This document shows, piece after piece, positions 124 through 16,508 of a stretch of 64,000 nt of DNA. The stretch is from Desulfobacteraceae bacterium (lineage in GTDB: Bacteria; Desulfobacterota; Desulfobacteria; Desulfobacterales; Desulfosalsimonadaceae). The notes under the pieces are model-generated. The model had not been told where the DNA came from. It saw only the letters and a list, made by a program, of their open reading frames with translations, and ran no database searches. The DNA is taken from NCBI GenBank assembly GCA_011389935.1, contig JAABTJ010000008.1:1-64000 (forward strand), read 5' to 3'. Numbering within the stretch: the first letter of the stretch is position 1; each line of letters opens with the position of its first letter. The translations under genes were made by a program, and so were the position numbers.

Positions 124-2127
124 ATGCCTGAAGCGAATAACATCGACAAATTAAACGCCGTCCTTGGTGACAAATATGAGATTGTTTCCCTGATCGCCGC
201 GGGTGGGATGGGGGAAATCTATCTCGGCATCCATCGGGTTCTGGGGAAAAAGCGCGCCATCAAGATCATTCACCAGTCGGTGGAAAAAGAAAAGGATATC
301 CGCCAGCGTTTTCTGCAGGAAGCCAAACTCGCCGCCAGCATTGATCACCCCGGAATCATCCAGATCATGGATTTTGGCAGCCATGATGAATTCGATTATC
401 TGATCATGCCCTATATCGAAGGGGCCACACTTCAGGAAGAAATGGAAAAGGGGCCCTTTGGCCCGGAAGCCGCGCTTGTACGGATGCTGGCCATGACAGA
501 CGCCCTTGCCCATGCCCACCGACAGAACATCATTCATCGGGATATCAAGCCGTCCAATTTTATGATCGATGCGGAAGGGCGGGTGATTTTGACCGATTTC
601 GGCATCTCCAAGAATCTGGGCGATCCCAACCTGACAGCAACCAATATGATCCTGGGATCGCCCAAATTCATGAGCCCGGAGCAGATTTCGGGAAAACCGG
701 TGGACAGGCGAAGCGACCTGTACTCGCTGGGATTGATATTTTACCAGATGGTTACCGGGATTTATCCGTTTCAATCGGCGGATATGGCTTCCCTGGCATA
801 CAAACAGGTTCATGAAACGCCGTTGCCCCCCTCTTCGGTGAATCCGCAAATACCGGAAACGCTGAGCAGCGTCATCACCCGGCTTCTGGAAAAAGACCCG
901 GACGCCCGATGTCCGGGGGGAGAGGCCCTTTTTACGGATTTGCAGCGTTTAAAAGAGCAGGGCTTCGCAAGCCCGCAGCCCCTTTCGGACGAGGGAAAAC
1001 CGTCTTTTGAGGAGATGGCGACCCGGGTAACCGTGCGAGACGGCCTTGGGACTCCCGGGGAGCGTGCCGGAGGACAGGCCGGGAAAAAACAAGGTGCGGC
1101 GCCGCTGGTGCAGACAAAATCGGTCTCCAGGGGAAACAGAAAACCGCTGTGGATATTGCTGGCTGTGGGTGCCAGTATGGCGGCCCTGCTGATTGTTTTT
1201 TTTGCCGTGGATCCGGTCCGGCGTCAGGTTGTGACCCTGTTTGGGGAAAAAGAAGCGCAGCCGGCGCTTCGGGACAGAGACGCCCGGGAAAAAGCTTTTT
1301 TGAAACGGTTTGCCGCACAAAACGGGCCGTTCATGCAATCGGATATTCGAAATATATGCGGCCTGGCGGTGTGCATCAAAGAAGAAGGGGGCAAAGGACC
1401 AGGCCTGGCGTCGGATCTGCGAACGCTGCTGGCGGCTATGCCGTTTGTGCGCTCCGGGGATAACGATGGATGCGATGTGCTGATCGAAATAAACGGCCCT
1501 TCGTCTGCCGGAAAATTGTCTGTTGCCAGCAATCTCTATGAATGCGGCGACGCCTGCAGCGAAGAATTCGCCATCCGCGAAGGGAAAATTCCTTCCGAGA
1601 GGATACGGTCGCTGCTGACGCGCAATTACTGCTTTCACCTCTTTGCGGCCCTAAACCTGATCCATACGAACCAGGGCGGCCCTTCCATTGATCTTGAGAT
1701 TCCCGGCAAAAGCGAAAATGCCTTTACCGTCGGCGAGCAGGTCCAGTTCTGCATGAAACCGCCTTTCAAGGCGCACAGCATGCTGCTGAATATAAATACG
1801 GACGGTATTTTTAAGCTGTTCCCCCTTGACAGGGGGCAGCGTGGGGAGCTTATCAAGGATGAAACCGGATGTACCCGGGTTGTCCAGGTTTCGCCCCCTG
1901 TCGGCAATGAACTAATCGTTGCGCTCGGTTCCGTATCCAACGGGGTTATCGATACCTACAGCCAGAAGTTTGATAGCCGTATGCCGGTTTTTTCGTGGTC
2001 TTACGAAGCCTCCGGCCAAAACAGCGCCGTGGATGTCAGCGAGGCGCTTTTCGGGCAGCTGGTCAATCAGCCCGCAGGCAGCTGGACGGCAAACAGCCGG
2101 TTTATTCGGGTGGTCGATCATGATTGA
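124..2127 (+). CDS. PknB-type serine/threonine protein kinase with C-terminal DUF4384-like domain
   Basis: Phosphorylates Ser/Thr on partner proteins. The cytoplasmic kinase domain (about residues 17-285 of 667) shows a glycine-rich loop (AAGGMGEIYLG), the ATP lysine (K47), the HRDIKPSN catalytic loop (D140), DFG (D158) and MSPEQ in place of APE. A linker leads to one membrane helix near residues 340-362. The outer part ends in a domain like DUF4384 (DGIFKLFPLD and following), often found on kinases and caspase-like peptidases near CsgG proteins. I start at ATG 124 because the homologous part begins there; an in-frame TTG at 52 would add 24 residues. First gene of a 16-kb plus-strand run that also encodes a PP2C phosphatase and an FHA protein. 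Its own start region lies at the window edge, so the promoter may be outside. Confidence 0.93.
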   Translation: MPEANNIDKLNAVLGDKYEIVSLIAAGGMGEIYLGIHRVLGKKRAIKIIHQSVEKEKDIRQRFLQEAKLAASIDHPGIIQIMDFGSHDEFDYLIMPYIEGATLQEEMEKGPFGPEAALVRMLAMTDALAHAHRQNIIHRDIKPSNFMIDAEGRVILTDFGISKNLGDPNLTATNMILGSPKFMSPEQISGKPVDRRSDLYSLGLIFYQMVTGIYPFQSADMASLAYKQVHETPLPPSSVNPQIPETLSSVITRLLEKDPDARCPGGEALFTDLQRLKEQGFASPQPLSDEGKPSFEEMATRVTVRDGLGTPGERAGGQAGKKQGAAPLVQTKSVSRGNRKPLWILLAVGASMAALLIVFFAVDPVRRQVVTLFGEKEAQPALRDRDAREKAFLKRFAAQNGPFMQSDIRNICGLAVCIKEEGGKGPGLASDLRTLLAAMPFVRSGDNDGCDVLIEINGPSSAGKLSVASNLYECGDACSEEFAIREGKIPSERIRSLLTRNYCFHLFAALNLIHTNQGGPSIDLEIPGKSENAFTVGEQVQFCMKPPFKAHSMLLNINTDGIFKLFPLDRGQRGELIKDETGCTRVVQVSPPVGNELIVALGSVSNGVIDTYSQKFDSRMPVFSWSYEASGQNSAVDVSEALFGQLVNQPAGSWTANSRFIRVVDHD

Positions 2128-2172
2128 TCGTTTACAAGCATATTCTTCTGCAAAAAAGAATCAGGAGGCGCT

Positions 2173-3258
2173 GTGAGCCGCGGACATCGTTTACGAACCG
2201 ATAGGATCCTTTTGTTCATTTTGCTGCTGGGATGCGGGCTGTTTCTTTTCCCGCCGACCCCTCTTTGTGCCGGGCAAGCGGAGGTTCTCACGAAAGTCAG
2301 GCATAAACCGATCGCGTATTTTGTGCCGGGAAACCGGATCGCCATCGATGCCAGGGTAACGGAACCCTCCGGAATTGATCTTGTTCGTTGCTATTTCAAG
2401 GGGGATATGCAGGCGGAATATGTCTTTGTGCCCATGACGGAAACCGACGAGGATAATTACAAGGCCATTTTGCCTGCGCCGGCGGAGGATGCCCTCCAGC
2501 TCCAATATCTTTTCCTGGTGGTTACCCGTAATCAGCAGGTGGTGAAAACCCAGGAATTTCGCGTAGAAAAAGCGGTGGAAGAAAAAGACCTGCCAGCCTG
2601 GCAGAAGGTCGACATGGATGAAAGGCTTGCCGTTTATACGGAGATGCCGACGCCCCCTGAAACGGTTGACGGATTTTCCGATTCGGTGACTCTCGACGCC
2701 GTCGAATCCTCGCTTCGTTTCGGAATGGTTGCCGGCATCTATTCCGCTTACGCAGCCGCTTCTGCCGGCCCGGTAACCGGTACGGCCTCATCTGCAACGA
2801 GCGCCGGGAGTATCACCGCAACCGGAACCGGCGGCACATATACGACAGTTGGCCTGGCAACGATTGCCGGTGTCGCTGCCGGAGCCGGTGCCATTGCGGC
2901 TGCAGGCGGAGACAGCGGCGGCGGAAAAGAAAGGATCAATCCCAATGCCCGCGTTTCCTGGGGGGATGAGAACCTGCCGCGGGAAGACGCTTTCCAGGCA
3001 TTTTTCAGGGGGAAGGACCTGGGCGTTGCCGATTCCGGCATCCATGAGAAAATCGGCCTGCCCGTTGGCACCCATGATCTGACCATACGGGCATTATCGA
3101 TTTCCGGGGATGTCGGTAATGTGATCATCGACTTGGGTGGGGGCGCTTATTTTTACAATGACGGCAGCACCTCCAAAAGGGCTTCCCTTGCAGAAGGGGA
3201 AAGTAATGTGTTTTCGGTTTTCGTGCCGGATATCGGCTCGGCACGAATTCGATGGTAG
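2173..3258 (+). CDS. Exported protein of unknown function with glycine/alanine-rich hydrophobic segment
   Basis: I do not recognise a named family. The GTG start is set by an AGGAGG ribosome site at 2163-2168. Residues about 11-33 form a signal peptide with likely cleavage after LCA. Residues 38-132 read like an Ig-type beta domain (GxRIxIxAxVTEPSGIDLVRCYF). Residues 185-250 are extremely rich in Gly, Ala, Ser and Thr and hydrophobic enough to enter or cross a membrane, like a glycine-zipper segment. The last 100 residues look like another beta domain. It lies 45 bases after the kinase gene and before a lipoprotein and a caspase-like peptidase, so it is probably a periplasmic or outer-membrane part of the same apparatus. 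That role is inference from position. Confidence 0.8.
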   Translation: MSRGHRLRTDRILLFILLLGCGLFLFPPTPLCAGQAEVLTKVRHKPIAYFVPGNRIAIDARVTEPSGIDLVRCYFKGDMQAEYVFVPMTETDEDNYKAILPAPAEDALQLQYLFLVVTRNQQVVKTQEFRVEKAVEEKDLPAWQKVDMDERLAVYTEMPTPPETVDGFSDSVTLDAVESSLRFGMVAGIYSAYAAASAGPVTGTASSATSAGSITATGTGGTYTTVGLATIAGVAAGAGAIAAAGGDSGGGKERINPNARVSWGDENLPREDAFQAFFRGKDLGVADSGIHEKIGLPVGTHDLTIRALSISGDVGNVIIDLGGGAYFYNDGSTSKRASLAEGESNVFSVFVPDIGSARIRW

Positions 3259-3368
3259 CGGTTGGGCGTATCCGTTTTTATGATACGAGCCGTTCCGTTA
3301 CGTGCGGGCGGCATCGAAATGCGACGGCGCCTGTGACACCAGGAACGTAAACAGGAGAGGTCGTTTCC

Positions 3369-5333
3369 GTGAAATCCTATAGAATGTTTTTTCTGTGGGC
3401 CGCTCTTCTTGCCTTTTCCATGACGGGGTGCGGCGGATCCTCCGGGGAGGATGCATCGGATACCTACGGCTCCGCTGCATTTCAGATCCAATGGCCCGAT
3501 GACACCGCATCCGGGGAAGCGTCTGTATCCGGCGACGGAGATGCGGAGATATCCCCGGATGCAGATAGACGGCTCGCCAGGGCATATCTTTTCAGTGAGT
3601 GCGAAACCAGGAATGTGGTCACTATTGCCGTGGAAGTCACCGACGACCGGGAGCGACTCCTGGCTTCAGCGGCGTTTGAATGCGAGGCAAGGGAAGGGGT
3701 TATCGAAAACATTGAAGTCGGTACGGACCGGCGCTTTGCCGTCTCCGCCCTGGATCCGGAGGGAGAGATGCTTTTTTCCGGGGAAAAAACCGGGGTTGCC
3801 ATCGAATCCGGGCACAATGAGGTGGGCGTAATTGTATTGGGGAGCGATAATGGCGTCATTATTTTCCCCCATGTGGAAATCACCGCACCGGCGGAAGGCG
3901 CTGTTTATACGTTTGGCGATGAAATCATCTTTACCGGCATGGCAACCGACGAACAGGGCGGGGAGTTGACCGGCGATGCACTGGTATGGCACTCGGACAT
4001 TGACGATTCGCTTGGAACCGGCTCGTCCCTGGTCACTGCCGATCTTTCCCCTGGCATCCATGTCATCACCCTGACGGCAACGGACAGCGACAGCAATACG
4101 GGTGAGGACAGCATTTCCATAACCATCAGCGAACCCGCCCAGGAGTCGCCGGTAGTGACGATTCTGCGGCCCATTGACAGCAGCCGCCACACAAACAATG
4201 GGAATATTTATTTTGAAGGGGCAGCCAGTGATCCCCAAGACGGCGATTTGACCGGAGAGGCGCTGGTATGGACGTCCGACAGGGACGGCGCAATCGGCGC
4301 CGGGGAAATTTTTGTCAGTATGTTGTCCGCGGGAGTCCATGAAATCACGTTGACTGCAACCGACAGCGATGGTTTGGAAGGAGAAGCCGCCGTATCCATT
4401 GCGGTGATTGTTCCCCGATTGCCGGATACCGGGCAGACAACGTTTTATACGACGACATTTGGGGAAGACGCCGACTATACGATTCGTCCGCCGTCCTACA
4501 CCAAGCTTGACGACACCGGCAGGGCGCTTCCGGACAATGCGACTGCATGGGCCATGGTACGGGACAATGTAACCGGTTTGGTGTGGGAGGTAAAAACAAC
4601 GGACGCTTCCATACACAACAACACGGATCGGTATACCTGGAACGAGGCGGATTCCGTTTTTGTGAACGCCCTGAATCAGAGCGCTTTCGGCGGATACGAC
4701 GACTGGCGGCTGCCGACGGTCATGGAGCTCTATACGATTATCCATGCGGACAATGTCGATCCCGCCGTGAATACCGGCTATTTCCCCAATGTTCCGGATC
4801 CGGATTCTGTCCGCCCCTATTACTGGTCTGCAACCCCGCGTGCGGATTCCCCTTCCGAATGGGTATGGGTTATCGATTTCGGATCCGGACGGGCCGTTGG
4901 TTATGAAGAAGAGGTGCAGCATGTGCGCGCCGTCCGGGGGGCTGAGTTTCGTACCGGGCGGTTTACGGATATCGGGAATGAAACCGTAACAGACCGGTCA
5001 ACCGGACTGATGTGGCAACGATGGGAAGATCCTGCTGCAACATGGGAGAACGCCCTTTATTCATGCGAGTCGCTTGAGTTGGCAGGCCATGCGGACTGGC
5101 GGGTGCCCAATCGCCATGAACTCCATACGATAGTCGACTATACCGCCGCTAACCCTGCCATGGATACCGATGTTTTTATAGATAATGCTGTCGGCTATTA
5201 CTGGAGCTCTACTTCTTCGCCGATAGACGGTTCGACTGCATATGCGATCAACTTTACGTCTGGGTTTACCGGTAGCCTGGTGAAATTAGATCCTCCGTCT
5301 GTTAGGGTTCGCTGCGTCCGCGGCGGGCAGTAG
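3369..5333 (+). CDS. Lipoprotein with two Ig/PKD-like repeats and two DUF1566 domains
   Basis: A 654-residue surface or periplasmic lipoprotein. The GTG start at 3369 follows an ACAGGAGAGG ribosome site. The signal peptide ends in a lipobox with C21 followed by GGSSGED. Two tandem beta repeats (about 171-258 and 264-350) share the pattern DxxGGxLTGxALVWxSD...GxHxITLTATDSD, typical of PKD/Ig-like modules. Two DUF1566 (Lcl C-terminal-like) domains follow (about 370-545 and 546-654), with their usual DNVTGLVWE / RSTGLMWQ, DWRLPT / DWRVPN and YYWSAT / YYWSST signatures. DUF1566 is common in secreted proteins of these bacteria, but its biochemical role is not known to me. No catalytic motif is visible. 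Gene order places it with the kinase and caspase-like genes. Confidence 0.9.
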   Translation: MKSYRMFFLWAALLAFSMTGCGGSSGEDASDTYGSAAFQIQWPDDTASGEASVSGDGDAEISPDADRRLARAYLFSECETRNVVTIAVEVTDDRERLLASAAFECEAREGVIENIEVGTDRRFAVSALDPEGEMLFSGEKTGVAIESGHNEVGVIVLGSDNGVIIFPHVEITAPAEGAVYTFGDEIIFTGMATDEQGGELTGDALVWHSDIDDSLGTGSSLVTADLSPGIHVITLTATDSDSNTGEDSISITISEPAQESPVVTILRPIDSSRHTNNGNIYFEGAASDPQDGDLTGEALVWTSDRDGAIGAGEIFVSMLSAGVHEITLTATDSDGLEGEAAVSIAVIVPRLPDTGQTTFYTTTFGEDADYTIRPPSYTKLDDTGRALPDNATAWAMVRDNVTGLVWEVKTTDASIHNNTDRYTWNEADSVFVNALNQSAFGGYDDWRLPTVMELYTIIHADNVDPAVNTGYFPNVPDPDSVRPYYWSATPRADSPSEWVWVIDFGSGRAVGYEEEVQHVRAVRGAEFRTGRFTDIGNETVTDRSTGLMWQRWEDPAATWENALYSCESLELAGHADWRVPNRHELHTIVDYTAANPAMDTDVFIDNAVGYYWSSTSSPIDGSTAYAINFTSGFTGSLVKLDPPSVRVRCVRGGQ

Positions 5334-5395
5334 GCCCCAAACAGCCGGCGTACGGGAAAGTGTTATATAAACCGAAAAAAACTCGGGATGGACCT

Positions 5396-7444
5396 ATGAA
5401 GACAAAAACCATTATTTTCATCATTGCCGTATGTGCGCTGTTTATGGCATGGGGCTCCGTTTGCTTTGCCGAAGAAGACGCGAAACTGATCGTTTTTATC
5501 AGCCCGGAAAATGCGGAAGCCCTTTCCGCGGCCGATGCCCGTGCATTGTTCGACAGGCGACTGATCCCCGCGGAAAACCGCCTGGCAAAAGAAATGCAGG
5601 AAAGGGGCTTCCGGGTAATGACCAGCAGCGACGTCGTCCCGAGCGGACAATTGGCCGCCTCGGAAATCGCAAAAGCCTCCCAGGGGGAGTTAAAGCAGAT
5701 CCGGAAAGCGGCCATCGCCAATTCGGCCCACTATATTTTCAGCGGTTACATGGATGTGGAGACAACCGAGGAAGATACCCTGGGGATGATTCTTCAGAAA
5801 GTGGTCGCAACGATCAGCTACAAGGTGTATGAAACAACGTCTGCCGAGGTGCTGCACATTGATTCCGGCGTTTTTACGGTTGTGGGGAAGTCTCCGAAAA
5901 CGCTTTTCGACAATGCCCTGGACCAGATGGCTGCAGAAGTGTCCCTGGCGTTGGCGGCAAAAATTCCCCCTGCCGTATCCAAAAAGCAAGCCGGGCTGAT
6001 TGCGGATCTGAAAAGAAAAATGACAACCGCCGAAGTGTCTCCAAGCCCTGCGCCTGCGAGAGGAGGCGGCATGCCGCAGATCGTCATCATCAATCCGCCA
6101 ATCGGCCGCGGGTTTGCCATTGCCCAGAAAGAGCGCGCCGTTGAAATGGAAGGCATGGTTATCGATCACAGCGGAACGGGCATCCAGTATTTCAATATCA
6201 ACAACGAGCCCGTTCATCTGCAGGCCGGCGGTGAATTCAGATACGGCATCATGCTGGATCCCGGGGATAATCAATTTGAAATGGCCGCCATGAGCAGGGA
6301 CGGCAAGATGGTGAAAAAGGAAATCACTCTGACCCTGCCGGACGATAAAAACCCTCCGGATATTATCATCACCGAGCCGATGATCGCCAGGGGATTCACC
6401 ACGATCGTTACCGATCCGCTGTCGAGCCTGATCATAAAGGGTCAGGCCAGAGACGACATCGGCGTGCAGTATGTTACGATCAACGACAACCCCATTGCAA
6501 CGGACGAAAACGGGCATTTTGAATCGGATATCCCCCTTGCCGGAGAGAAGACGTCAATCCGGGTTGTGGCCGCGGATATTTTCGGCAATGTCGCCAGAAA
6601 GGAATTCCACGTAGAGAGGGGGCAGCGCAGCCTCGTTCCACAGGCCGGCGAAGCCGGAACTCCGGCCCCTGCGCATGCACCGGTCCTGTGGGGGCTGGCC
6701 ATCGGCGTGTCCCAATACAGCAGCAGCACCCTGGATTTGAAGTATGCCGCCGCAGATGCCGCTGCCATTGCCCATTTTTTTGAAAACCAGGGGCGGGGGT
6801 TGTTTTCCGAAGTCAATTTCAAGGTGCTCACGGATCGGGAGGTTACCCGGGATGCCATTATTGAAAGCTTTGCTTCGCATCTGGGGCAGGCCGGACCGGA
6901 TGATGTCGTGTTTATTTTTGTCGCCGGCCACGGCATCAAGCACCGGCAAACCGGTTCGTATTATTTCATCCCATCCAATGCCGATCATAACAACATCGTA
7001 TCCAGAGGGCTGCGGATGTCGGATTTTGAAGAGGCCGTTAAAATTCTGTCCAAAAATGTCAACAAAGTGGTCATCGCCATGGATACCTGCCATTCCGGGG
7101 CAATGGAGGTGGGGCTCCGGTCGGGCATGTCCCCGGAAAACCTGGCTGAGACGCTTCAGGCGGCATCGGGGTTGTATGTGTTGTCGTCCTCCAAGGCCGG
7201 GGAGGTTTCCATCGAAGGGGAAGAATTTCAGCTGGATGATCCCAATTCGGGTCATGGCGTATTTACCTATGCATTGATTACCGGGATGCGGGGGGAGGCG
7301 AATTACGATAACGATGCGGTTGTCTCATTAAACGAACTTTTTCAATTTGTCTCGCGGACCGTACCCCGGCTGACCGGGGGGAGTCAGCATCCGTATCTGA
7401 AGGTCAGCGGAACGGATATGCCGCTGGTGTTGATGGGCAATTAA
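5396..7444 (+). CDS. Secreted caspase-like (peptidase C14) protein with CsgG-like N-terminal region and Ig-like repeats
   Basis: A 682-residue protein starting at ATG 5396; an upstream in-frame ATG at 5360 is less likely because the signal peptide (MKTKTIIF...VCFAE) begins at 5396. Residues about 28-200 resemble the nucleotide-binding-like fold of CsgG/FlgT/LPP20 proteins (AAIANSAHYIFSGYMDV, then SYKVYETTSAEVLH). Residues about 225-430 hold two Ig-like repeats, each opening with a P-I-(G/A)-R-G-F phrase. The C-terminal caspase domain (about 445-680) has the catalytic His512 in VAGHG and Cys565 in DTCHSG, so it should be an active cysteine peptidase. It is predicted to be periplasmic, unlike most bacterial caspase homologues I know of. 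The neighbours include a CsgG-like lipoprotein and a kinase. Confidence 0.92.
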   Translation: MKTKTIIFIIAVCALFMAWGSVCFAEEDAKLIVFISPENAEALSAADARALFDRRLIPAENRLAKEMQERGFRVMTSSDVVPSGQLAASEIAKASQGELKQIRKAAIANSAHYIFSGYMDVETTEEDTLGMILQKVVATISYKVYETTSAEVLHIDSGVFTVVGKSPKTLFDNALDQMAAEVSLALAAKIPPAVSKKQAGLIADLKRKMTTAEVSPSPAPARGGGMPQIVIINPPIGRGFAIAQKERAVEMEGMVIDHSGTGIQYFNINNEPVHLQAGGEFRYGIMLDPGDNQFEMAAMSRDGKMVKKEITLTLPDDKNPPDIIITEPMIARGFTTIVTDPLSSLIIKGQARDDIGVQYVTINDNPIATDENGHFESDIPLAGEKTSIRVVAADIFGNVARKEFHVERGQRSLVPQAGEAGTPAPAHAPVLWGLAIGVSQYSSSTLDLKYAAADAAAIAHFFENQGRGLFSEVNFKVLTDREVTRDAIIESFASHLGQAGPDDVVFIFVAGHGIKHRQTGSYYFIPSNADHNNIVSRGLRMSDFEEAVKILSKNVNKVVIAMDTCHSGAMEVGLRSGMSPENLAETLQAASGLYVLSSSKAGEVSIEGEEFQLDDPNSGHGVFTYALITGMRGEANYDNDAVVSLNELFQFVSRTVPRLTGGSQHPYLKVSGTDMPLVLMGN

Positions 7445-7488
7445 CCGGGCGGGCGGGCAGCCCGAATACAAAAAAGGGGGAATGTGGT

Positions 7489-8205
7489 GTGAAACGGCAA
7501 TTATATAAACGGTTTGCCATCGGGTTCTTGCTGCTTTTTATTCTGACATGCAGCGCCTGTTCAGGTGCAAAGGTCCAGCCGGATGAGGCCGGCGGCGCAG
7601 ATTCTTCAAAAAGCCCGCAGATCGACTGGTCACAGCTGCCGGCGCCGCCCTTGCAGAAGGAATTGATCGCGGTCGCAGGCTTTGAAAACAGGAGCACCTA
7701 TTCTGCAGACAGGCTCTGGGACACATCCTCCCAGCAGTTGGCCTCGTCCCTGTTGCGCACCGGGTATTTCCGGGTGGTGGAATGGGAGAAAATGAAGCAG
7801 CTGTTTGACTGGGATACCCTAAGCCATGCCAGCATAGTAAAGAGCCCGGAAAATCTGGAAAGAGCCCGGCGGATACTTTTGTGCGAATATTTCGTGTCCG
7901 GGGCGATTACCCATTTCAACGTCAACCAGCATTCCAGTGTGAGCGCCCTGTCAAAGAGCAAGCAGATCGATACCACCATCCGGGTGGACCTGCTGCTCCA
8001 GGATGCAAGGTCCGGTGAATATCTTTCGACCGGCAAGGGGTCGCACATGGTCCGGCAGACCTATTCCGGCGGAATGGCGGGCGGACAGACAGGCTCCTGG
8101 GATTCCCACGCAGCGGATGAGGCCCTGTCCGCTGCAATCGAGCTGGCCTTGTTTGAATTGATTGAAAATTTTGACAAAACCCGGCATGGCATAAAAAATA
8201 ACTAA
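7489..8205 (+). CDS. CsgG-like curli-assembly-type lipoprotein
   Basis: A 238-residue exported protein. GTG start after an AAAGGGGGAATG ribosome-site region. The signal peptide ends near a lipobox-like CSAC with Cys24 as the likely lipidated residue. The body follows the CsgG pattern: AVAGFENRSTYSADRLWDT, a partner-finding helix, RVVEWEKMKQ, then a beta strand with DYFVSGAIT-like spacing (CEYFVSGAITHF), repeated strands (TIRVDLLLQDARSGEYLSTGKG), and a C-terminal A-x-x-x-AIELALFELI helix. CsgG forms outer-membrane export pores for curli. Many CsgG homologues without curli genes exist and their role is open. No CsgA, CsgB, CsgE or CsgF gene is nearby. It lies between the caspase-like gene and the DUF799-type lipoprotein gene, 12 bases from the latter. 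Confidence 0.88.
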   Translation: MKRQLYKRFAIGFLLLFILTCSACSGAKVQPDEAGGADSSKSPQIDWSQLPAPPLQKELIAVAGFENRSTYSADRLWDTSSQQLASSLLRTGYFRVVEWEKMKQLFDWDTLSHASIVKSPENLERARRILLCEYFVSGAITHFNVNQHSSVSALSKSKQIDTTIRVDLLLQDARSGEYLSTGKGSHMVRQTYSGGMAGGQTGSWDSHAADEALSAAIELALFELIENFDKTRHGIKNN

Positions 8206-8217
8206 TGTAAGGCCTTT

Positions 8218-8907
8218 ATGCGGCACGCCAAACGTTACGCCATTCTTTCGTGTCTGTTTTTGCTTTTTGCCTGTACCGGTTTTTCCGCAGGGGGAGGCGC
8301 GCCGACGGATATAGAAAGCCGGGAATCCTGGTGGCTTGCCCAAGACTTTGGGGAATATGCCCCGGCGCGAATCGCGGTGTTGCCCATGGAAAACCTGTCT
8401 TTGGAGCCCGACGTCGAAAAGGCGCTGTACGGGGAAGTATACGATCGCTTGTCGGCAAAAGGGTATATCAAGATCGACGTTGAAGAGGTCCGCTCGGTCA
8501 TGGATGAGCTTGGCATCCAGACAGCGGGGCAGCTTGCAGGGATATCCCCTTCCCGGCTGGGGGAGCTGCTGCACTGCGACGGCGTTATCAAGGGGCGCGT
8601 TGACCAGTCCGGCACGGTCCATATGGGCGTTTATGACGCTCTGGTGGTTTCCATTTCTCTCCAGCTGGTGCATTCCCATACAGGCAAAATCTTGTGGACT
8701 ACGGAGCAATGGCGGGCCGCTCATCGGCAGTGGCATGCGGACCCGTTCAACCTGTTATTGAGTTTTGCCGCCCATGAAACCGCATCAAGGAAGCAGCGGG
8801 TGGCCTGGCTGGCCCAGGAGATGCTGAAAACGCTGCCGGACGGGCCGGTTCAGGTCGTAGGGGACGATCTTATGGACGGTGCCGTCTCCATCCCTGCCGC
8901 CGAATAA
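8218..8907 (+). CDS. GNA1162/DUF799-like lipoprotein
   Basis: A 229-residue lipoprotein with lipobox LFAC (Cys19). The body matches the GNA1162 (DUF799) family: ARIAVLPMENLSLEPDVEKALYGEVYDRLSAKGY, then LGELLHCDGVIKGRVDQSG and LQLVHSHTGKILWTTEQWR. This family has the same overall fold as CsgG and usually accompanies CsgG- and TPR-type lipoproteins in putative outer-membrane complexes. It follows the csgG-like gene by 12 bases, so the two are almost certainly co-transcribed and probably act together at the outer membrane. The start ATG is at the first base; no other good start is nearby. Confidence 0.85.
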   Translation: MRHAKRYAILSCLFLLFACTGFSAGGGAPTDIESRESWWLAQDFGEYAPARIAVLPMENLSLEPDVEKALYGEVYDRLSAKGYIKIDVEEVRSVMDELGIQTAGQLAGISPSRLGELLHCDGVIKGRVDQSGTVHMGVYDALVVSISLQLVHSHTGKILWTTEQWRAAHRQWHADPFNLLLSFAAHETASRKQRVAWLAQEMLKTLPDGPVQVVGDDLMDGAVSIPAAE

Positions 8908-8986
8908 TGCAGTGAGCAGGTGGATGGCGGTTACAACTGCCACGTAAATCGAGGTGGTTTTTTGCGAAGCGGGAGGGCCTATCGGC

Positions 8987-9853
8987 TTGAGCGTTCTATC
9001 TTCTGGATATGCGACAAGTGCCGGCATGGTGAGACAGGACAATGAGGACAGTCTGTGCGTTCGCCCGGATATCGGCCTTTGGGCGGTGGCCGATGGCATG
9101 GGAGGGTACAGGAGCGGCGAGACGGCCAGCCGCATTACGGTCGAGCGGTTGGCGCGAGATGTTGCCGGGAGTATGCCGCTTGCCGAATCCATATCCCGCA
9201 TTCATCACCATATCCTTACCCTTGCACAAAGCGATCCGGGGTATGAATCCATGGGCTCCACCGTGGTTGCCCTGAAGACAGATGAAAAAAAGTATGAAAT
9301 TGCCTGGGTGGGGGACAGCCGGGCCTATTTATGGGACGGCGGGGAATTGACCCGCCTTACCCGTGATCACTCTTATGTCCAGCTTCTTGTCGACAGCGGT
9401 ATCATTGGGGAAGCAGACGCATTGGATCATCCGGAGCGTCATGTCATTACACAGGCGCTGGGCGCTGAAGAGATCGAAAATGTGGATGTAGATACCATTG
9501 ACGGGATTTTTCATGAAAACGAGAAAATTCTTTTATGCAGTGACGGCTTGACCAATGAAGTTCCCGATTCCCAGATTTTGTCGATACTGAAACAGCCTCT
9601 CTCAGAACAAAGTCTGGTCGACCGTTTGATTGAGGCAGCAAATCAAAACGGCGGATCCGACAATATTTCCGCCATTCTGATTGCGGCGGACAACGCCTTT
9701 GTCCCCAAGGGTCTTGACGCGGAAACCGGCAACGCACAAGCCGCCATTTCCCGCCCGGATTCGGCGAAAGCGAATTCACCCTTCTGGATTCTGATGGTGA
9801 TTGTTTTTTTTGCGCTCTTTATATCCGTAATATTGGTATATGATATTCTGTAG
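8987..9853 (+). CDS. PP2C-family protein phosphatase with C-terminal membrane anchor
   Basis: Mn/Mg-dependent Ser/Thr phosphatase that should reverse the kinase at 124-2127. The PP2C motifs are intact: QDNEDS, VADGMGG, STVVAL, GDSRAYL, LTRDHS, DGLTNE and GGSDNIS. After the catalytic domain and a short linker there is a C-terminal hydrophobic stretch (FWILMVIVFFALFISVILVY), so the enzyme is tail-anchored to the inner membrane with its active site in the cytoplasm. Start choice: TTG 8987 has a GGGAGGG ribosome site 10 bases upstream; the in-frame GTG at 8954 would add 11 residues. This kinase plus PP2C plus FHA pattern resembles the threonine phosphorylation pathway known from type VI secretion clusters. 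Confidence 0.92.
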   Translation: MSVLSSGYATSAGMVRQDNEDSLCVRPDIGLWAVADGMGGYRSGETASRITVERLARDVAGSMPLAESISRIHHHILTLAQSDPGYESMGSTVVALKTDEKKYEIAWVGDSRAYLWDGGELTRLTRDHSYVQLLVDSGIIGEADALDHPERHVITQALGAEEIENVDVDTIDGIFHENEKILLCSDGLTNEVPDSQILSILKQPLSEQSLVDRLIEAANQNGGSDNISAILIAADNAFVPKGLDAETGNAQAAISRPDSAKANSPFWILMVIVFFALFISVILVYDIL

Positions 9854-9888
9854 ACGTACCCACTCCGGATAGATGATATTTATCCCTT

Positions 9889-11376
9889 TTGTTTTGCTTC
9901 AATGTCCAGGCAGAAAAAAAAGCGAGAATCGATTTGTCTCCGGTTATCCATGTTACCCTTCAAAAAGGCCGTGGCGGACGGAAATCCTATAAATTTATCC
10001 GTTCCTTTCACATCGGCCGTGCCGCCGGGTGCGATATTCAAATACAGGAAGAAGATGTCAGTCGCCGGCATGCAATCGTTGAATACAGCGATGGGCAATG
10101 GTGGATAACTGACCTGGAGAGCAGCAACGGCATTTGGATAAACGGCGGCAAAGTTTCCCGGGCGCCTGTGGGCGATAACACCGAAGTGGAATTCGGCCCC
10201 GGGGGGCCCGTTCTTTTTTTCCGGGTACCTGAAAAAACAGCCGGCCCCCGGCCTTCCAGCGTGTCCGTCGGTGGGGAGGGGCAAAAAAGCATTGAGCAAT
10301 ATGCCCGGCATTATTTCGGGGACGCATCGGAAAAAGGGATCGGGGAGCGAACCATGATGGTGCGCCAGGCGTTTCAGCGCGTCCACCGAAAGCAAAAACG
10401 AACGTATCTCTGGATCATCGCTGTTTCCGCCAGCATTTGCGTGTTTGCCGTCACGTATGCCGTTTATAAACATTTTCAAATGGAAAAACAAAAAAAACTG
10501 GCGGAAGAGATTTTTTATACCATGAAGTCGCTGGAGCTCGAATTCGCCGAAGTGCTGGCGCTTGCCCGGAGGACCGAAGATATTGAAACGCAGAAGACCG
10601 TGGCGCGCTTTACGGCCAAATACGACGCACTGGAAAAAAATTATGACCGGTTTGTCGATTCACTGGGGATTTACGGAAAAGGAGTCGATGAAAAGGAAAA
10701 GACGATATTGCGAGTCGCCAGAAGGTTCGGGGAGTGTGAAATCAATATGCCCGAAGCCTTTAAAAATGAAGTTTTGAATTATATCAACCGGTGGCGATCT
10801 ACCGGCAGGATGAAAAAAGCCCTTACCCGTGCGATCCGGAAAGGGTATGTTCCCGCAATTGTGGAAACGATGAACCATTATGATCTTCCCCCCCACTTTT
10901 TTTACCTGGCGCTCCAGGAGAGCAATTTTGATCTCAACGCATGCGGACCGGAAACCCGGTATGGGATTGCGAAAGGATTGTGGCAGTTCATCCCCCCCAC
11001 GGCGGAAGAGTATGGACTGAAGCTCGGTCCGCTGGCGCATATGCGAACCCCGGACGAGTTGGATGACCGCCATGATTTTGAAAAATCAACCCGGGCCGCG
11101 GCCAGGTACCTTCGGCATATCTATGACACGGATGCCAAGGCATCGGGCCTCCTTGTCATTGCCTCCTATAACTGGGGGCAGGGACGGGTCAACCGGTTGA
11201 TCCGCCAGATGCCGGACAACCCGGAGGAGAGAAATTTCTGGAAATTTTTGAAGCAGTACCGGGACAGTATTCCCAAAGAGACCTATGATTACGTTTTTTA
11301 TATTTTTTCCGCCGCAGTTATCGGCGAAAATCCGGCGCTTTTCGGGTTTGATTTTGAAAATCCGCTGGTGCTTTGA
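9889..11376 (+). CDS. FHA domain - transmembrane helix - lytic transglycosylase fusion
   Basis: A 495-residue bitopic protein. The N-terminal FHA domain (about 20-110) has HIGRAAGCDIQI, VSRRHA and SSNGIWIN, the residues that bind phosphothreonine. A membrane helix (about 172-194) follows, then a coiled helical stretch (200-260). The periplasmic soluble-lytic-transglycosylase (SLT/GH23) domain (about 320-450) has catalytic Glu344 in ALQESNF, AKGLWQFIPPTA and ASYNWGQGRVN. The design suggests a peptidoglycan-cutting enzyme whose location or partners are set by phosphothreonine marks made by the nearby kinase. That control is inference. The start is unsure: TTG 9889 lies right after the phosphatase stop, and another TTG at 9934 is possible; neither has a strong ribosome site. 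Confidence 0.9.
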   Translation: MFCFNVQAEKKARIDLSPVIHVTLQKGRGGRKSYKFIRSFHIGRAAGCDIQIQEEDVSRRHAIVEYSDGQWWITDLESSNGIWINGGKVSRAPVGDNTEVEFGPGGPVLFFRVPEKTAGPRPSSVSVGGEGQKSIEQYARHYFGDASEKGIGERTMMVRQAFQRVHRKQKRTYLWIIAVSASICVFAVTYAVYKHFQMEKQKKLAEEIFYTMKSLELEFAEVLALARRTEDIETQKTVARFTAKYDALEKNYDRFVDSLGIYGKGVDEKEKTILRVARRFGECEINMPEAFKNEVLNYINRWRSTGRMKKALTRAIRKGYVPAIVETMNHYDLPPHFFYLALQESNFDLNACGPETRYGIAKGLWQFIPPTAEEYGLKLGPLAHMRTPDELDDRHDFEKSTRAAARYLRHIYDTDAKASGLLVIASYNWGQGRVNRLIRQMPDNPEERNFWKFLKQYRDSIPKETYDYVFYIFSAAVIGENPALFGFDFENPLVL

Positions 11377-11415
11377 AAGGGCTTTTACCGAACACATCAG
11401 GGGTTATTGAAAAAA

Positions 11416-12792
11416 ATGCCGAAAATCATTTTTCTTCATTTGTGTTCGCTGCTGGTTTTTTTTGCATCGCCGGTCTGGTGCCGGGACGTATACGACCTGG
11501 AAGCGATCATTAACCGCTCGCTTGAGGCGAACTGGGGGATGGTTGACGCCCGGGACGACATTGAGAGGGCCAGGTTACGCCTTGACATCGCTGAAGCCGA
11601 ATTTGAACTCAAGATTTATCCGGGGACCAGCATCGGTTTTTCCGGCGGGGATGAGCAATCTGCGGACACGGATATCGGCCTGGGCGTCCGACTGGAAAAA
11701 AAGACGCAATTCGGTACCCAGATCGACGTGACCCCTTCTATTGAAACAATTGATGGCCAATACCGGAGCCGGGCAGGGGTTCATATCACGCAGCCGCTTC
11801 TTCGCGGTGTCGGCAGGGACTATACCCTCTCCGGCGTTTACAGCGCCCGTTTCGGCGAGAGAACTGCTCTGCGTATGCGGTATCAAAGGGAAATCGATAC
11901 CGTGGTGGGCGCTGTGCGCCATGGGTACGAGGTGGTTCGCCAGCGGGAGCTTCTGCGGCTGCGGCAGGAATCTTACCAGCGGCTCGGAGAACTGGCCGAG
12001 GCCACGGCCGTCAAACAGCCCATGGGGCTTGCGTCCTCGATGGATCTTTACCGGGTCCGCATTCAACGCAATCAGGCCGAAGAAGAACGCAACCGCAGCA
12101 GAGAAACCTATGCGGACGCCCTGGACACCTTGAAAATCTTTCTGGCCCTGCCCCTGGAGAAAGGTATCGATGTGTTTCTCCCCCTGGATTTTGACCGGAT
12201 CGATATGGATGAAGAAGAGATGATACAAACCGCCCTGGCCAGGCGTCTGGAACTGGAGCAGCTTCGGGATGCGCTGGCCGAAGCGGAGCGACTTTCTGAA
12301 AGGGCTGAAACCGACATTCTCCCTGAACTGGACATCCGGCTTTTTCTCACGCAGACAGGGGATCCGTCCACCAGCTTTCCCGGATCCGCACCGGAGCATA
12401 CCCGATGGGGGATCAGCCTGGGGTCGACCACAGATTTGAGGCGAACCTCCCAGCAGGCAATATTCGAGGACAGCCTGCTCAATGTCCGGCAGGCAGCCAG
12501 AAGACAGCGCATTGCCAGGGATGATATCACCGCCCAGGTAAAGCGGGAAATCCGTAACCTGGAACGCCTGGACAAAGCCATTATCAACCAGGAGGAGCAG
12601 ATTCACCAGGCCAGGGGGCAGCTTGAACTGGCCAGGGCCAAGTTCGAGCATGGCATGGCCGACAATTTTGATCTCATCGATGCTGAGATAGCGCTTCGCC
12701 GCGCCCAAACCCAGCTGATCTCGGCCGTTATCGACTATATTGTCGGCCAGTACCGGTTGCGTGCGGTTATCGGCACGCTGGTGGATCGGTAA
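11416..12792 (+). CDS. TolC-family outer-membrane efflux protein
   Basis: Forms a trimeric channel through outer membrane and periplasm for an ABC exporter. The protein has a signal peptide (MPKIIFLHLCSLLVFFASPVWC) and two OEP halves of about 200 residues each. Coiled-coil regions are rich in Arg, Glu and Leu (for example around RERELLRLRQESYQRLGEL and ARGQLELARAKFEHGMADNFDLIDAE), and the last conserved phrase is DAEIALRRAQTQLISAVIDYIVGQYRLRAVIG. I choose ATG 11416; TTG 11407 is three codons upstream. At about 458 residues it has normal length. It precedes the HlyD-type adaptor and, after a repeat element, the ATPase and permease, and so forms a MacAB-TolC-like set. Confidence 0.9.
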   Translation: MPKIIFLHLCSLLVFFASPVWCRDVYDLEAIINRSLEANWGMVDARDDIERARLRLDIAEAEFELKIYPGTSIGFSGGDEQSADTDIGLGVRLEKKTQFGTQIDVTPSIETIDGQYRSRAGVHITQPLLRGVGRDYTLSGVYSARFGERTALRMRYQREIDTVVGAVRHGYEVVRQRELLRLRQESYQRLGELAEATAVKQPMGLASSMDLYRVRIQRNQAEEERNRSRETYADALDTLKIFLALPLEKGIDVFLPLDFDRIDMDEEEMIQTALARRLELEQLRDALAEAERLSERAETDILPELDIRLFLTQTGDPSTSFPGSAPEHTRWGISLGSTTDLRRTSQQAIFEDSLLNVRQAARRQRIARDDITAQVKREIRNLERLDKAIINQEEQIHQARGQLELARAKFEHGMADNFDLIDAEIALRRAQTQLISAVIDYIVGQYRLRAVIGTLVDR

Positions 12793-12868: not shown

Positions 12869-14341
12869 ATGATATTTACAACATTCAGCAAGCGCGTTTT
12901 CATAGTGGCCCTACCCGCGATTTTTTTATTTTTTGCAGGCCATCAGATTTTTTTCCCCGCTGAAAAAGACGCCGGGGGCATTTTGACCGCAGAGGCGATC
13001 AGGACCGAAATGCGTATTGAAGTCCGCGCCGTAGGGGAACTGGATGCTGCGGATGCGGTTGTCTTGAGCTCTTCGGTCCGCGGGGATCGCGGCAAAATCA
13101 TCGCGCTCGTGGAAGACGGCACACATGTTCGGGCCGGAGAAGTCCTTGTCCGACTGGATCCCACGTTCTTTGAGGAGGAGGTGTTAAAACTCCGGTCAAG
13201 GGTGATGGAGCTGGAGGCACTGGTGGATGCGCAGGAGCAATTGCTGGCGTGGGAAAAAAATCAGGTTGGACGCGAAATCCACCGTGCTGAAAGCGATCTT
13301 CATATTGCGCGGTTGGAATTGCGCCGGCTGGAAAAAGGTGAAGGGCCACGAGAACTGGCGCGCCTGGAGGCCGAGGCCAGAAAGGCAAAAGAAGATTACG
13401 AGCAGAAAAGGGGTTATCTTGATTCCCTGGAGGCGCTGGCCCAGAAAGGCTTTGCCAATCCCACGGAGCAGGCGCAGATTGAGCAGCGCATCGAAGACGC
13501 CGGGGAGACGTACCGGATGGTCGCCATGCAGCTGGAAAGCTATCGGGATCATCTTTTGCCGGTACAAATTGAAAAGGCAAAGGCCTCCATAGATGCAGCG
13601 GAAGTTGCGCTGGAGCAGATCAGAAAGGGGGGCGGCTACAAGATCGGACAGGCCCGGGCCACGCTGGCAGAGTACGAACAGGCGCTTGCTTCGGCAAATC
13701 AACATTTAAAGGCTGCATCGCAGGAACTCGCCGCGACGGTCATTACGGCGCCGGGTCCGGGCATGGTCATTCTGGCCGAACAAATCCGGGGAAATACCCG
13801 TCGCAAGCCCAGGGTCGGTGATCAGGTGTGGCAGAACCAGCCCCTTGTATACCTCCCGGATATTTCAAAAATGATCGTCAAAACACGGGTGCGGGAAGTC
13901 GATTTGCATAAAATTGATATCGGCAAACCTGTTTTTGCAAAAGTGGACGCCTATCCTGATCTTTTGCTCACGGGTCGGGTCGCATCGATTGGCGTTCTGG
14001 CGGATCAAGGACCCGAAGGGCGGCAAAGGGGGCGATATTTCAGCGTAACCATTGCGCTGGACGAATCTGACCCCAGGCTTCGTCCGGGCATGACCGCCAG
14101 AATAAACATTGTCTGCAGCGAGGTTTCAGATGCCCTGGTCGTTCCTTCTTTTGCCGTGTTTCAGGAAGGGGGGAAAACCGTTGCTTTTGTGGCCACGGAA
14201 ACCGGCTTTGAAAAGCGAGAAGTGATTACGGGCGCTCAAAATGAAGAGCTGGTTGAAATCACGGCAGGATTGAGACAGGGGGAGCCGGTTGCGCTGAGCC
14301 GGCCGGAGCATCTGCAGGTGAAAAGTACGCAATCCCTTTAG
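12869..14341 (+). CDS. HlyD/MacA-type periplasmic adaptor protein
   Basis: Membrane-fusion protein that joins the inner-membrane ABC transporter to the TolC channel. An N-terminal membrane helix (about residues 8-28) is followed by a biotinyl-lipoyl-like half motif (VLSSSVRGDRGKIIALVEDGTHVRAGEVLVRLDP), a long alpha-hairpin (about 95-265, with repeated Glu/Arg heptads), the second lipoyl half (TVITAPGPGMVILAE), a beta barrel and a C-terminal membrane-proximal domain ending RPEHLQVK. The hairpin is longer than in a typical MacA. At 490 residues it is at the upper end for the family. The downstream partner genes begin 234 bases later because repeat element A lies between. Confidence 0.9.
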   Translation: MIFTTFSKRVFIVALPAIFLFFAGHQIFFPAEKDAGGILTAEAIRTEMRIEVRAVGELDAADAVVLSSSVRGDRGKIIALVEDGTHVRAGEVLVRLDPTFFEEEVLKLRSRVMELEALVDAQEQLLAWEKNQVGREIHRAESDLHIARLELRRLEKGEGPRELARLEAEARKAKEDYEQKRGYLDSLEALAQKGFANPTEQAQIEQRIEDAGETYRMVAMQLESYRDHLLPVQIEKAKASIDAAEVALEQIRKGGGYKIGQARATLAEYEQALASANQHLKAASQELAATVITAPGPGMVILAEQIRGNTRRKPRVGDQVWQNQPLVYLPDISKMIVKTRVREVDLHKIDIGKPVFAKVDAYPDLLLTGRVASIGVLADQGPEGRQRGRYFSVTIALDESDPRLRPGMTARINIVCSEVSDALVVPSFAVFQEGGKTVAFVATETGFEKREVITGAQNEELVEITAGLRQGEPVALSRPEHLQVKSTQSL

Positions 14342-14575: not shown

Positions 14576-15262
14576 ATGACCGAACCCCGATTATCCCCCC
14601 TGCTTCTGGCAAAGGGATTGTGCAAAAGGTACCCGTCAGGCGACGGGTGGGTTCATCCATTACGAGGCGTGGATATCACATTGTATCCCGGTCAGTTCGT
14701 CGCCGTTATGGGGCCGTCGGGCGCCGGCAAGTCAACCTTGCTGCATATCCTGGGATTCCTGGAGCGTCCGGACATGGGGTCATACCATTTACGGGGCAGG
14801 GATGTATCGTGCCTGGAGGACAAGGCCCTTTCCCGTTTGCGGTCCTCTTGTATCGGTTTTGTGTTTCAGTCATACAATCTTATTTCCCAGTGTTCCCTTG
14901 TGGAAAATATTGCCCTGCCTTTCCTGTATCACCCGGAACCGCCCGGTAATGCTTCGGAGTTGGTGCTTTCCGTACTTGAAGAGGTAGGTTTGTCCGGGCG
15001 GAAAACCCACAAGCCGAGCCAGCTTTCCGGAGGAGAAATGCAGCGGGCGGCCATTGCAAGGGCCCTGGTTATTGATCCCCTGGTGGTCCTGGCCGATGAA
15101 CCCACGGGAAACCTGGATACAGAAAATGCCAGGAAAATTGCACAAATTTTTCAAAAAATGCACAAAAAAGGCACCTCGCTTGTTGTGGTTACCCACGACG
15201 ACGAAATCGCCCGTGCTGCTGACCGCGTTTTTTACATGAACGAGGGCCGGTTACGTGAATAG
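14576..15262 (+). CDS. MacB/LolD-type ABC transporter ATP-binding protein
   Basis: Powers an exporter with the permease encoded at 15255. A 228-residue ATPase with Walker [10 protein letters not shown] (46-54), Q-loop in GFVFQSYNL, signature [15 protein letters not shown], Walker [11 protein letters not shown] and the switch His in VVVTHDDE. The short length and GNLD phrase place it in the LolD/MacB/FtsE group, whose permeases use mechanical motion rather than a transmembrane substrate path. The start ATG 14576 is the first in frame after repeat A. The gene overlaps the permease gene by 8 bases, which indicates translational coupling. Confidence 0.92.
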
Positions 15263-16508
15263 TATCAACACTTTCTGGTCCAGGGGCCCCCATATTCTGG
15301 GCCAGGCATGGAAGGCCTTGTCCATGCACCGGCTCAGGAGCCTTCTGGGCACGCTGGGCATCGTATTTGCGGTTGCGGCAGTGGTAATCATGCTGGCCAT
15401 TGCAGAAGGCGCAAAAAAGAAAACCCTGGAACAAATCGGCGGCCTTGGCAGTGACAGTATCCTTGTCCGCAATTCCCGGACGGGGAATGAAGATGCGTCG
15501 GTCGCTCCTTTTTATAACATACCGGACTTGCTTGGAAACAGAGATGTTGACGCCATAAAACAGCTCCCGGGCGTTTTGCAGATCAGTGTTGTCAGGGAGG
15601 GCAACGTTTTTTTTGACGAACTGGGAGAATCCAACGTCATCCATACACTGGCTGTCCGATACGATTACTTTGCTGCCCGGGGATTGAGGCTGGCTCGGGG
15701 CCGATTCATTTCAGATATTGATGCTCAAAACGCCCATCAGGTTTGCGTGCTGGGTGCGGAACTGTCCAAACATCTTCGGGATGCAGGATCGGACGGTACC
15801 GTCCATGTGGCGGGTTCCCCTTACCGTGTGGTGGGTGTGTTGCGTCCCAGGGGTGATAGGGGGAGCAATCCGCTGCCCGTGGCCCTTCGAGATTTTGACA
15901 ATGCCGCATTTGTTCCCTTGTCGGAAATGAACGGAACGAATGCCGTTGCCGGTGGGGATGAATATTTTTCCGAAATGATAATAAAAATATCGGATACCCG
16001 TTTCATCGGCCCGATCTCAAAGGCCGTTCACCATGCCCTTTTGTGGAACCGCGACGGTGCTGAAAATTTTGAGATGATTGTTCCCAACGAACTGCTTTCC
16101 CAGGCCAGGCAGGCCCGGGGTTTGTTCAATGTCATTTTGGGAAGCATTGCCGGGACACTTCTTCTGGTCGGCGGTGTTGGCATTATGAATATCATGCTGG
16201 CCAATGTTTCTGAAAGAACCCGGGAAATAGGAATACGAAGGGCTGTTGGTGCCAGCAGGGGGCACATTGTCGCTCATTTTTTGGGAGAATCCATACTTTT
16301 GACCGTTTTGGGAGGGATTCTGGGAATAGGGATTGGTGTATTTGCCGCTCTGGGCGTAAATTTTTTCCTGCAATGGCGGGTATCGATCAGTCTTTGGTCT
16401 TTGTTTTCGGCCCTTTTCATGTCCATAGGCGTTGGCGTTGTTTCCGGTATATATCCGGCAATGAAGGCCGCCGACATGGATCCAGTTGATGCCCTGCGAC
16501 AAATCTGA
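15255..16508 (+). CDS. MacB-like ABC transporter permease
   Basis: Inner-membrane permease (417 residues) of the FtsX/MacB type. A first membrane helix (about 33-53) is followed by a periplasmic MacB_PCD domain (about 55-270) and three more helices near residues 290-315, 335-370 and 380-405. The conserved NIMLANVSERTREIGIRRAVGAS segment follows the second helix, and the C-terminus reads YPAMKAADMDPVDALRQI, both classic for MacB. GTG start overlapping the ATPase gene. With the TolC and HlyD-type genes upstream this is a complete tripartite exporter. Its substrate is not readable from sequence; export of a lipoprotein or peptide used by the upstream envelope cluster is possible but unproven. 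Confidence 0.92.
   Translation: MNSINTFWSRGPHILGQAWKALSMHRLRSLLGTLGIVFAVAAVVIMLAIAEGAKKKTLEQIGGLGSDSILVRNSRTGNEDASVAPFYNIPDLLGNRDVDAIKQLPGVLQISVVREGNVFFDELGESNVIHTLAVRYDYFAARGLRLARGRFISDIDAQNAHQVCVLGAELSKHLRDAGSDGTVHVAGSPYRVVGVLRPRGDRGSNPLPVALRDFDNAAFVPLSEMNGTNAVAGGDEYFSEMIIKISDTRFIGPISKAVHHALLWNRDGAENFEMIVPNELLSQARQARGLFNVILGSIAGTLLLVGGVGIMNIMLANVSERTREIGIRRAVGASRGHIVAHFLGESILLTVLGGILGIGIGVFAALGVNFFLQWRVSISLWSLFSALFMSIGVGVVSGIYPAMKAADMDPVDALRQI

Follow-up and report, generated by a model that had tools for sequence, protein, structure and literature searches.

Here we describe a locus at the start of a 64,000-nucleotide stretch of DNA (the window) from a Desulfobacteraceae bacterium (GenBank assembly GCA_011389935.1, contig JAABTJ010000008.1, positions 1 to 64,000), in which a single protein joins an FHA domain, a reader of phosphothreonine, to a wall-cutting lytic transglycosylase (SLT) domain, and we consider its relation to the type VI secretion system (T6SS). 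Eight genes at 124-11376 encode a membrane Ser/Thr kinase, five exported proteins, a PP2C phosphatase and the FHA-SLT protein; all are open, lie on the plus strand and are separated by intergenic gaps of 12-110 bp. They had been named in an earlier note made from the sequence and are upheld as real genes, with the named domains recovered by Pfam and the catalytic motifs of the kinase, PP2C, caspase and transglycosylase found intact. The note had ended the run at 11376, which is too early: four more same-strand genes (TolC, HlyD, ABC ATPase and MacB) extend it to 16508. Conservation of the gene set across other genomes is well above chance. Scans of the locus for promoters and terminators returned no more sites than shuffled sequence, so the operon structure is read from gene spacing alone. 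Contig C57, part of a draft genome of 2.84 Mb (94% complete, 58 contigs), physically ends at base 1 of the window; consequently, an absence of upstream genes cannot be read from the window. The comparison genomes are nearly all fragmented metagenome-assembled genomes, and the relatives are mostly Desulfobacterales.

The novel element of the locus is the FHA-SLT protein (9889..11376, plus strand), in which the reader is covalently joined to the transglycosylase. Pfam recognises the FHA domain (5e-18; residues 41-103) and SLT (PF01464, 5e-17; from about residue 333), with a hydrophobic helix (174-192) and a helical stalk between them. The predicted topology places the FHA domain in the cytoplasm, a single helix in the membrane and the transglycosylase in the periplasm. 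The GR, SRRH and SSNG motifs of the FHA domain are intact, and in an alignment of 18 FHA-SLT rows the domain has invariant residues and Glu344 of SLT is invariant as well. An AlphaFold 2 (AF2) model reached a pLDDT of 82.5; among the first 50 Foldseek matches listed for this model essentially all were FHA domains, its FHA part agreeing with FHA domains of solved structure, and the SLT part was assessed from sequence rather than from Foldseek. MltD was the best NCBIfam match of the SLT part, below the cut-off. FHA-SLT occurs in several phyla, and a search of open-licence papers returned none uniting an FHA domain, a transglycosylase and T6SS in a single protein.

The kinase gene (124..2127, plus strand) encodes a PpkA-like protein with a kinase domain (Pfam Pkinase 5e-50; HRD and DFG motifs intact) predicted to be cytoplasmic, a transmembrane segment at residues 344-362 and a predicted periplasmic C-terminus. 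A DUF4384-like outer domain had been proposed for it; the window kinase itself gives no DUF4384 score, and what stands of the proposal is that its C-terminus aligns to the region in which three of ten aligned kinases score for that family. The phosphatase (8954..9853, plus strand) is PppA-like, with a Pfam PP2C_2 match of 2e-12, intact DG motifs and a C-terminal membrane anchor at residues 277-295. The window kinase groups with the T6SS-linked kinases of G006 and G008, two genomes of the same family, with a tree support of 99/100; the kinase of genome G020 falls into this cluster as well (99/100), apart from the kinases of the envelope cassette described below. A membrane kinase from a T6SS-linked clade, a PP2C phosphatase and an FHA domain together support a threonine-phosphorylation pathway of T6SS type, as the earlier note had recognised.

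A complete T6SS is present in the same genome on contig C1, where it extends to the contig end and comprises genes for TssJ, TssK, TssL, TssM, TagF, TssA, TssB, TssC, Hcp, TssE, TssF, TssG, ClpV, VgrG and DUF2169. The stretch of this contig that was read contained no gene for an FHA protein, a kinase or PP2C, and when the entire assembly was searched for FHA, the only matches were FHA-SLT and a double-FHA gene on C17. It is plausible that C57 and C1 are adjacent. In G006 and G008, an orthologous kinase and FHA-SLT (in G006 also PP2C) are found where a T6SS cluster ends. They are separated from the T6SS core by a pair of divergent genes (258 and 255 aa), by genes for a VipA-VipB fusion and for an FHA protein, and by DUF2169/pentapeptide genes linked to VgrG. 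The 258-aa, 255-aa, VipA-VipB and FHA genes are found directly upstream of a window-like kinase in G020, and downstream of that kinase follow 361-aa, DUF1566, caspase, CsgG, GNA1162, TolC, HlyD, ABC and MacB genes. VgrG/TssC genes also occur near FHA-SLT in Desulfosarcina cetonica, in three Ignavibacteria-type genomes and in Thiosymbion.

T6SS presence was scored across genomes by the sheath gene VipB, and the counts carry no correction for relatedness. Among 98 relatives, VipB was found in 6 of the 8 FHA-SLT carriers vs 25 of the 90 others (p 0.012). Among 395 genomes of the phylum, all six carriers had VipB vs 40 of the 389 others (46/395 overall; Fisher 1.8e-6), two of these carriers (the window's own genome and G006) being rows of the search model and the independent four being G366, G418, G453 and G474. 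FHA-SLT lies inside a T6SS cluster in G418, G453 and G474, and together with a kinase, a VipA-VipB fusion, FHA and PP2C in G366. Across phyla, 14 of 19 FHA-SLT carriers had a VipB match.

The five exported genes between kinase and phosphatase, all on the plus strand, encode a 361-aa protein (2173..3258; no Pfam family matched), a lipoprotein that combines Ig/PKD-like repeats with two Lcl_C (DUF1566) domains (3369..5333; Pfam Lcl_C 2e-58; lipobox MTGC), a caspase-fold (C14) peptidase (5360..7444; Pfam Peptidase_C14 2e-19; His524/Cys577 intact), a CsgG-like putative outer-membrane lipoprotein (7489..8205; Pfam CsgG 6e-12) and a GNA1162/DUF799-like putative lipoprotein (8218..8907; Pfam 2e-12). 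Of 98 relatives, 14 have the 361-aa protein as well, in many cases as two tandem copies, and its single-sequence AF2 model was unusable (pLDDT 31.6); the GNA1162 gene has strong matches in 13 of the 98. GHG and DTC motifs are intact in the window caspase, the His-Cys dyad is kept in 7/7 aligned copies (window, G020, G014, G008, G024, G034 and G006), and a PDB sequence search with the caspase gave no match. A caspase-CsgG-GNA1162 cassette recurs in G008 (on a second contig, C23), G024, G030 (a partial contig), G034 and G035, usually with 361-aa genes and TolC-HlyD-ABC-MacB, which supports a conserved envelope cassette and bears out the envelope gene group of the earlier note. Wherever the contig extends far enough, a different kinase lies upstream of the recurring cassette. 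Since the cassette thus recurs alone with another kinase, while the window kinase groups with T6SS-linked kinases, the window reads as two modules: a candidate T6SS phosphorylation operon (kinase to PP2C-FHA-SLT) with a second cassette between kinase and phosphatase.

Taken as a whole, the locus is probably a control arm of T6SS of the PpkA-PppA-Fha type, with FHA-SLT taking the role of Fha at least in part; the envelope cassette is proposed to condition the kinase. The exported cassette (361-aa, DUF1566, caspase, CsgG and GNA1162 proteins) would sense or condition the envelope and set the activity of the kinase through its periplasmic domain, and the MacB-type ABC unit may perhaps belong to this sensing cassette. 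The kinase would then phosphorylate a threonine on a protein of the T6SS membrane complex; the cytoplasmic FHA domain would dock on this phosphothreonine and thereby site the periplasmic transglycosylase where the wall must open for TssJLM, and the membrane-anchored PP2C would reset the phosphorylation state. From its predicted topology and its genomic linkage, phosphorylation-guided wall opening for T6SS assembly is the most likely function of FHA-SLT. More tentatively, such proteins could constitute a class of T6SS accessories, widespread and as yet undescribed, in which phosphothreonine reading in the cytoplasm sets, through one membrane helix, where periplasmic cutting opens the wall, a switch that the caspase cassette would feed in Desulfobacterales. 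Passage of T6SS through the wall is known for few species only, and by separate enzymes (MltE, TagX); a fusion of reader and enzyme, if true, would unite, in one testable protein, the questions of how Fha acts after phosphorylation and how wall cutting is kept to assembly sites.

In T6SS pathways already characterised, the kinase PpkA is switched on by proteins of the envelope; its targets are Fha or TssL, and PppA resets the state (PMC10482370, PMC10433429); TagQRST, consisting of an outer-membrane lipoprotein, a periplasmic protein and an ABC transporter, acts on PpkA (PMC10482370, PMC6657622). Like the PpkA-PppA-Fha1/TagQRST set of the Pseudomonas aeruginosa H1-T6SS, the locus brings together genes for a membrane kinase with a periplasmic domain, a PP2C phosphatase, an FHA reader, a putative outer-membrane lipoprotein and an ABC transporter, and its genome has a T6SS, but here the FHA domain is fused to a lytic transglycosylase, a caspase is present and the T6SS core lies on another contig. 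The putative lipoproteins are CsgG/GNA1162-like and correspond to TagQ by gene kind only; the permease is of MacB type (best match MacB) with HlyD and TolC partners, the best match of the ATPase is LolD, below the cut-off, and the ABC unit is not assigned to TagST. In Acidovorax citrulli the gene of the outer-membrane protein TssW lies between ppkA and fha (PMC12607579), and TssW activates and positions the kinase. Envelope protein genes between kinase and reader are common to both loci; in the window, kinase and phosphatase are separated by five exported genes, and the likeness to TssW is one of gene position only. Wall cutting by MltE is needed for T6SS assembly in enteroaggregative Escherichia coli, and TagX has been proposed to act likewise in Acinetobacter (PMC10433429). 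Peptidoglycan cutting tied to T6SS, predicted here from sequence, is the common feature; MltE and TagX, however, are separate enzymes (a housekeeping lytic transglycosylase recruited to the membrane complex and an endopeptidase), whereas here the transglycosylase is covalently joined to the phospho-reader.

Several findings weigh against a T6SS control arm. The FHA domain of FHA-SLT scores 37, far short of the cut-off of 120 for the TagH family TIGR03354, and an end-overlap search of C57 against the other contigs, C1 included, found none. The GNA1162 gene shows no association with T6SS, as VipB is present in 5 of 13 carriers vs 26 of 85 others (p 0.39), and the GNA1162/caspase cassette was rejected as a T6SS component on these counts. 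Across phyla, 5 of the 19 FHA-SLT carriers have no VipB match. Genome G014, a 96%-complete assembly, carries the cassette with PP2C-FHA-SLT and yields no VipB match, and Tad-like CpaF (T2SSE)/FHA-TPR genes lie upstream of its 361-aa gene.

The missing association fits an alternative that has almost an even chance of being right, namely that a T6SS phospho-regulation operon and a functionally unrelated MacAB-TolC/CsgG/caspase export cassette merged here by chance. It competes only with the part assigned above to the cassette and is compatible with the T6SS part. Other genomes also have the cassette in the absence of both FHA-SLT and T6SS; in G008 (C23), G024, G034 and G035 it stands by itself and is accompanied by a different kinase, G030 has it on a partial contig, and in G008 the T6SS-phosphorylation module and the cassette are on separate contigs. 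Against chance, the cassette adjoins PP2C-FHA-SLT in three genomes (window, G003 and G014), whose efflux genes differ in their order, and a T6SS-type kinase in G020, it has a kinase of its own elsewhere, and exported caspase-fold proteins recur beside FHA-SLT in three other genomes.

The G014 locus and the five carriers lacking a VipB match point instead to FHA-SLT and its kinase and phosphatase serving trans-envelope machines generally, mostly T6SS and in some cases a Tad-like pilus, as a wall-opening unit not dedicated to T6SS. The cassette kinases of G024 and G034, which come after PilB-like T2SSE/FHA-TPR genes, point the same way. We regard this as unlikely, given VipB in all six carriers of the phylum sample and no Tad-like genes directly beside FHA-SLT in the loci read; some probability nevertheless goes to work with envelope machines other than T6SS, given that the composite of G014 lies downstream of Tad-like genes in a genome with no VipB match.

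Least probable, and already weakened, is the view of the earlier note that the locus is a self-contained, phosphorylation-triggered envelope machine independent of T6SS: the cassette is indeed a conserved block with a predicted reach from inner to outer membrane, but a complete T6SS is present in the genome, orthologous kinase and FHA-SLT genes stand at T6SS cluster ends in G006 and G008, and VipA-VipB and FHA genes lie upstream of the kinase in G020. The note's remark that no type VI genes occur here is half right: the run begins at a contig end, and the genome has its T6SS on C1. It had staked a separate system on the genes staying together in relatives and on no type VI cluster lying just upstream: the genes split into two modules and the genome has a T6SS, possibly directly upstream, which goes largely against it. 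Its statement that no system with this exact set has been described agrees with the open-licence literature, in which we found no such paper and none on a caspase together with CsgG/GNA1162.

The efflux genes downstream, all on the plus strand, encode a TolC-like outer-membrane efflux protein (11407..12792; Pfam OEP; same neighbourhood in relatives), an HlyD/MacA-like membrane fusion protein (12869..14341; Pfam; nearest kin in the G008 cassette), a LolD/MacB-type ABC ATPase (14576..15262; NCBIfam, LolD as noted above) and a MacB-type permease (15255..16508; PDB MacB matches to E 3e-42). Such genes are likewise consecutive in the MacAB-TolC exporter, but here ATPase and permease are separate genes and the set is combined with genes for the caspase, CsgG and GNA1162, which it accompanies in relatives as well. 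Two lineages are seen: HlyD and MacB of the window go with G008, and those of G020 and G014 with others.

A fusion of VipA-like and VipB N-terminal regions in one protein of about 520-540 aa, weakly like sheath proteins, recurs in the phylum at loci linked to T6SS, where FHA and kinase genes adjoin it (L033:17123-18691; L039_19, L039:14819-16417; L073_1, L073:3-1394; L128_6, L128:5529-7109). The Ignavibacteria-type row (L061:1248-9922, L062, L059) comprises VgrG, PAAR, an OmpA-containing protein of about 1100 aa, DcrB, FHA-SLT, PP2C and a PEGA kinase, and is apparently a T6SS module. A guanylate cyclase-FHA fusion lies between PP2C and FHA-SLT in G006 (L038:11103-11996), and the double-FHA gene of C17 (L108:9316-12272, G000) adjoins a hybrid histidine kinase. 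In T6SS-negative relatives the cassette has as neighbours FHA-TPR genes and genes for a Tad-like or PilB-like ATPase (L037:1738-4981, L044/L045/L075). In the 361-aa family (window 2173-3258, L040, L043, L044) the N-terminal half is conserved and the C-terminus variable, and the divergent tandem copies adjoin the GNA1162 gene.

A caspase-fold protein is a recurring neighbour of FHA-SLT; that of the window cassette is intact, and three other FHA-SLT loci have Ser in place of the catalytic Cys. In these, exported caspase-fold proteins lie directly downstream of FHA-SLT at 5, 267 and 0 bp (L041/L056, L053 and L054; caspases at L041:3355-5283, L053:2186-4078 and L054:11485-12867), and two of them are fused to an FGE-sulfatase domain. 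An FGE-type domain is also carried by TagR of P. aeruginosa. G006 and G008, too, have a caspase-fold protein within their T6SS locus.

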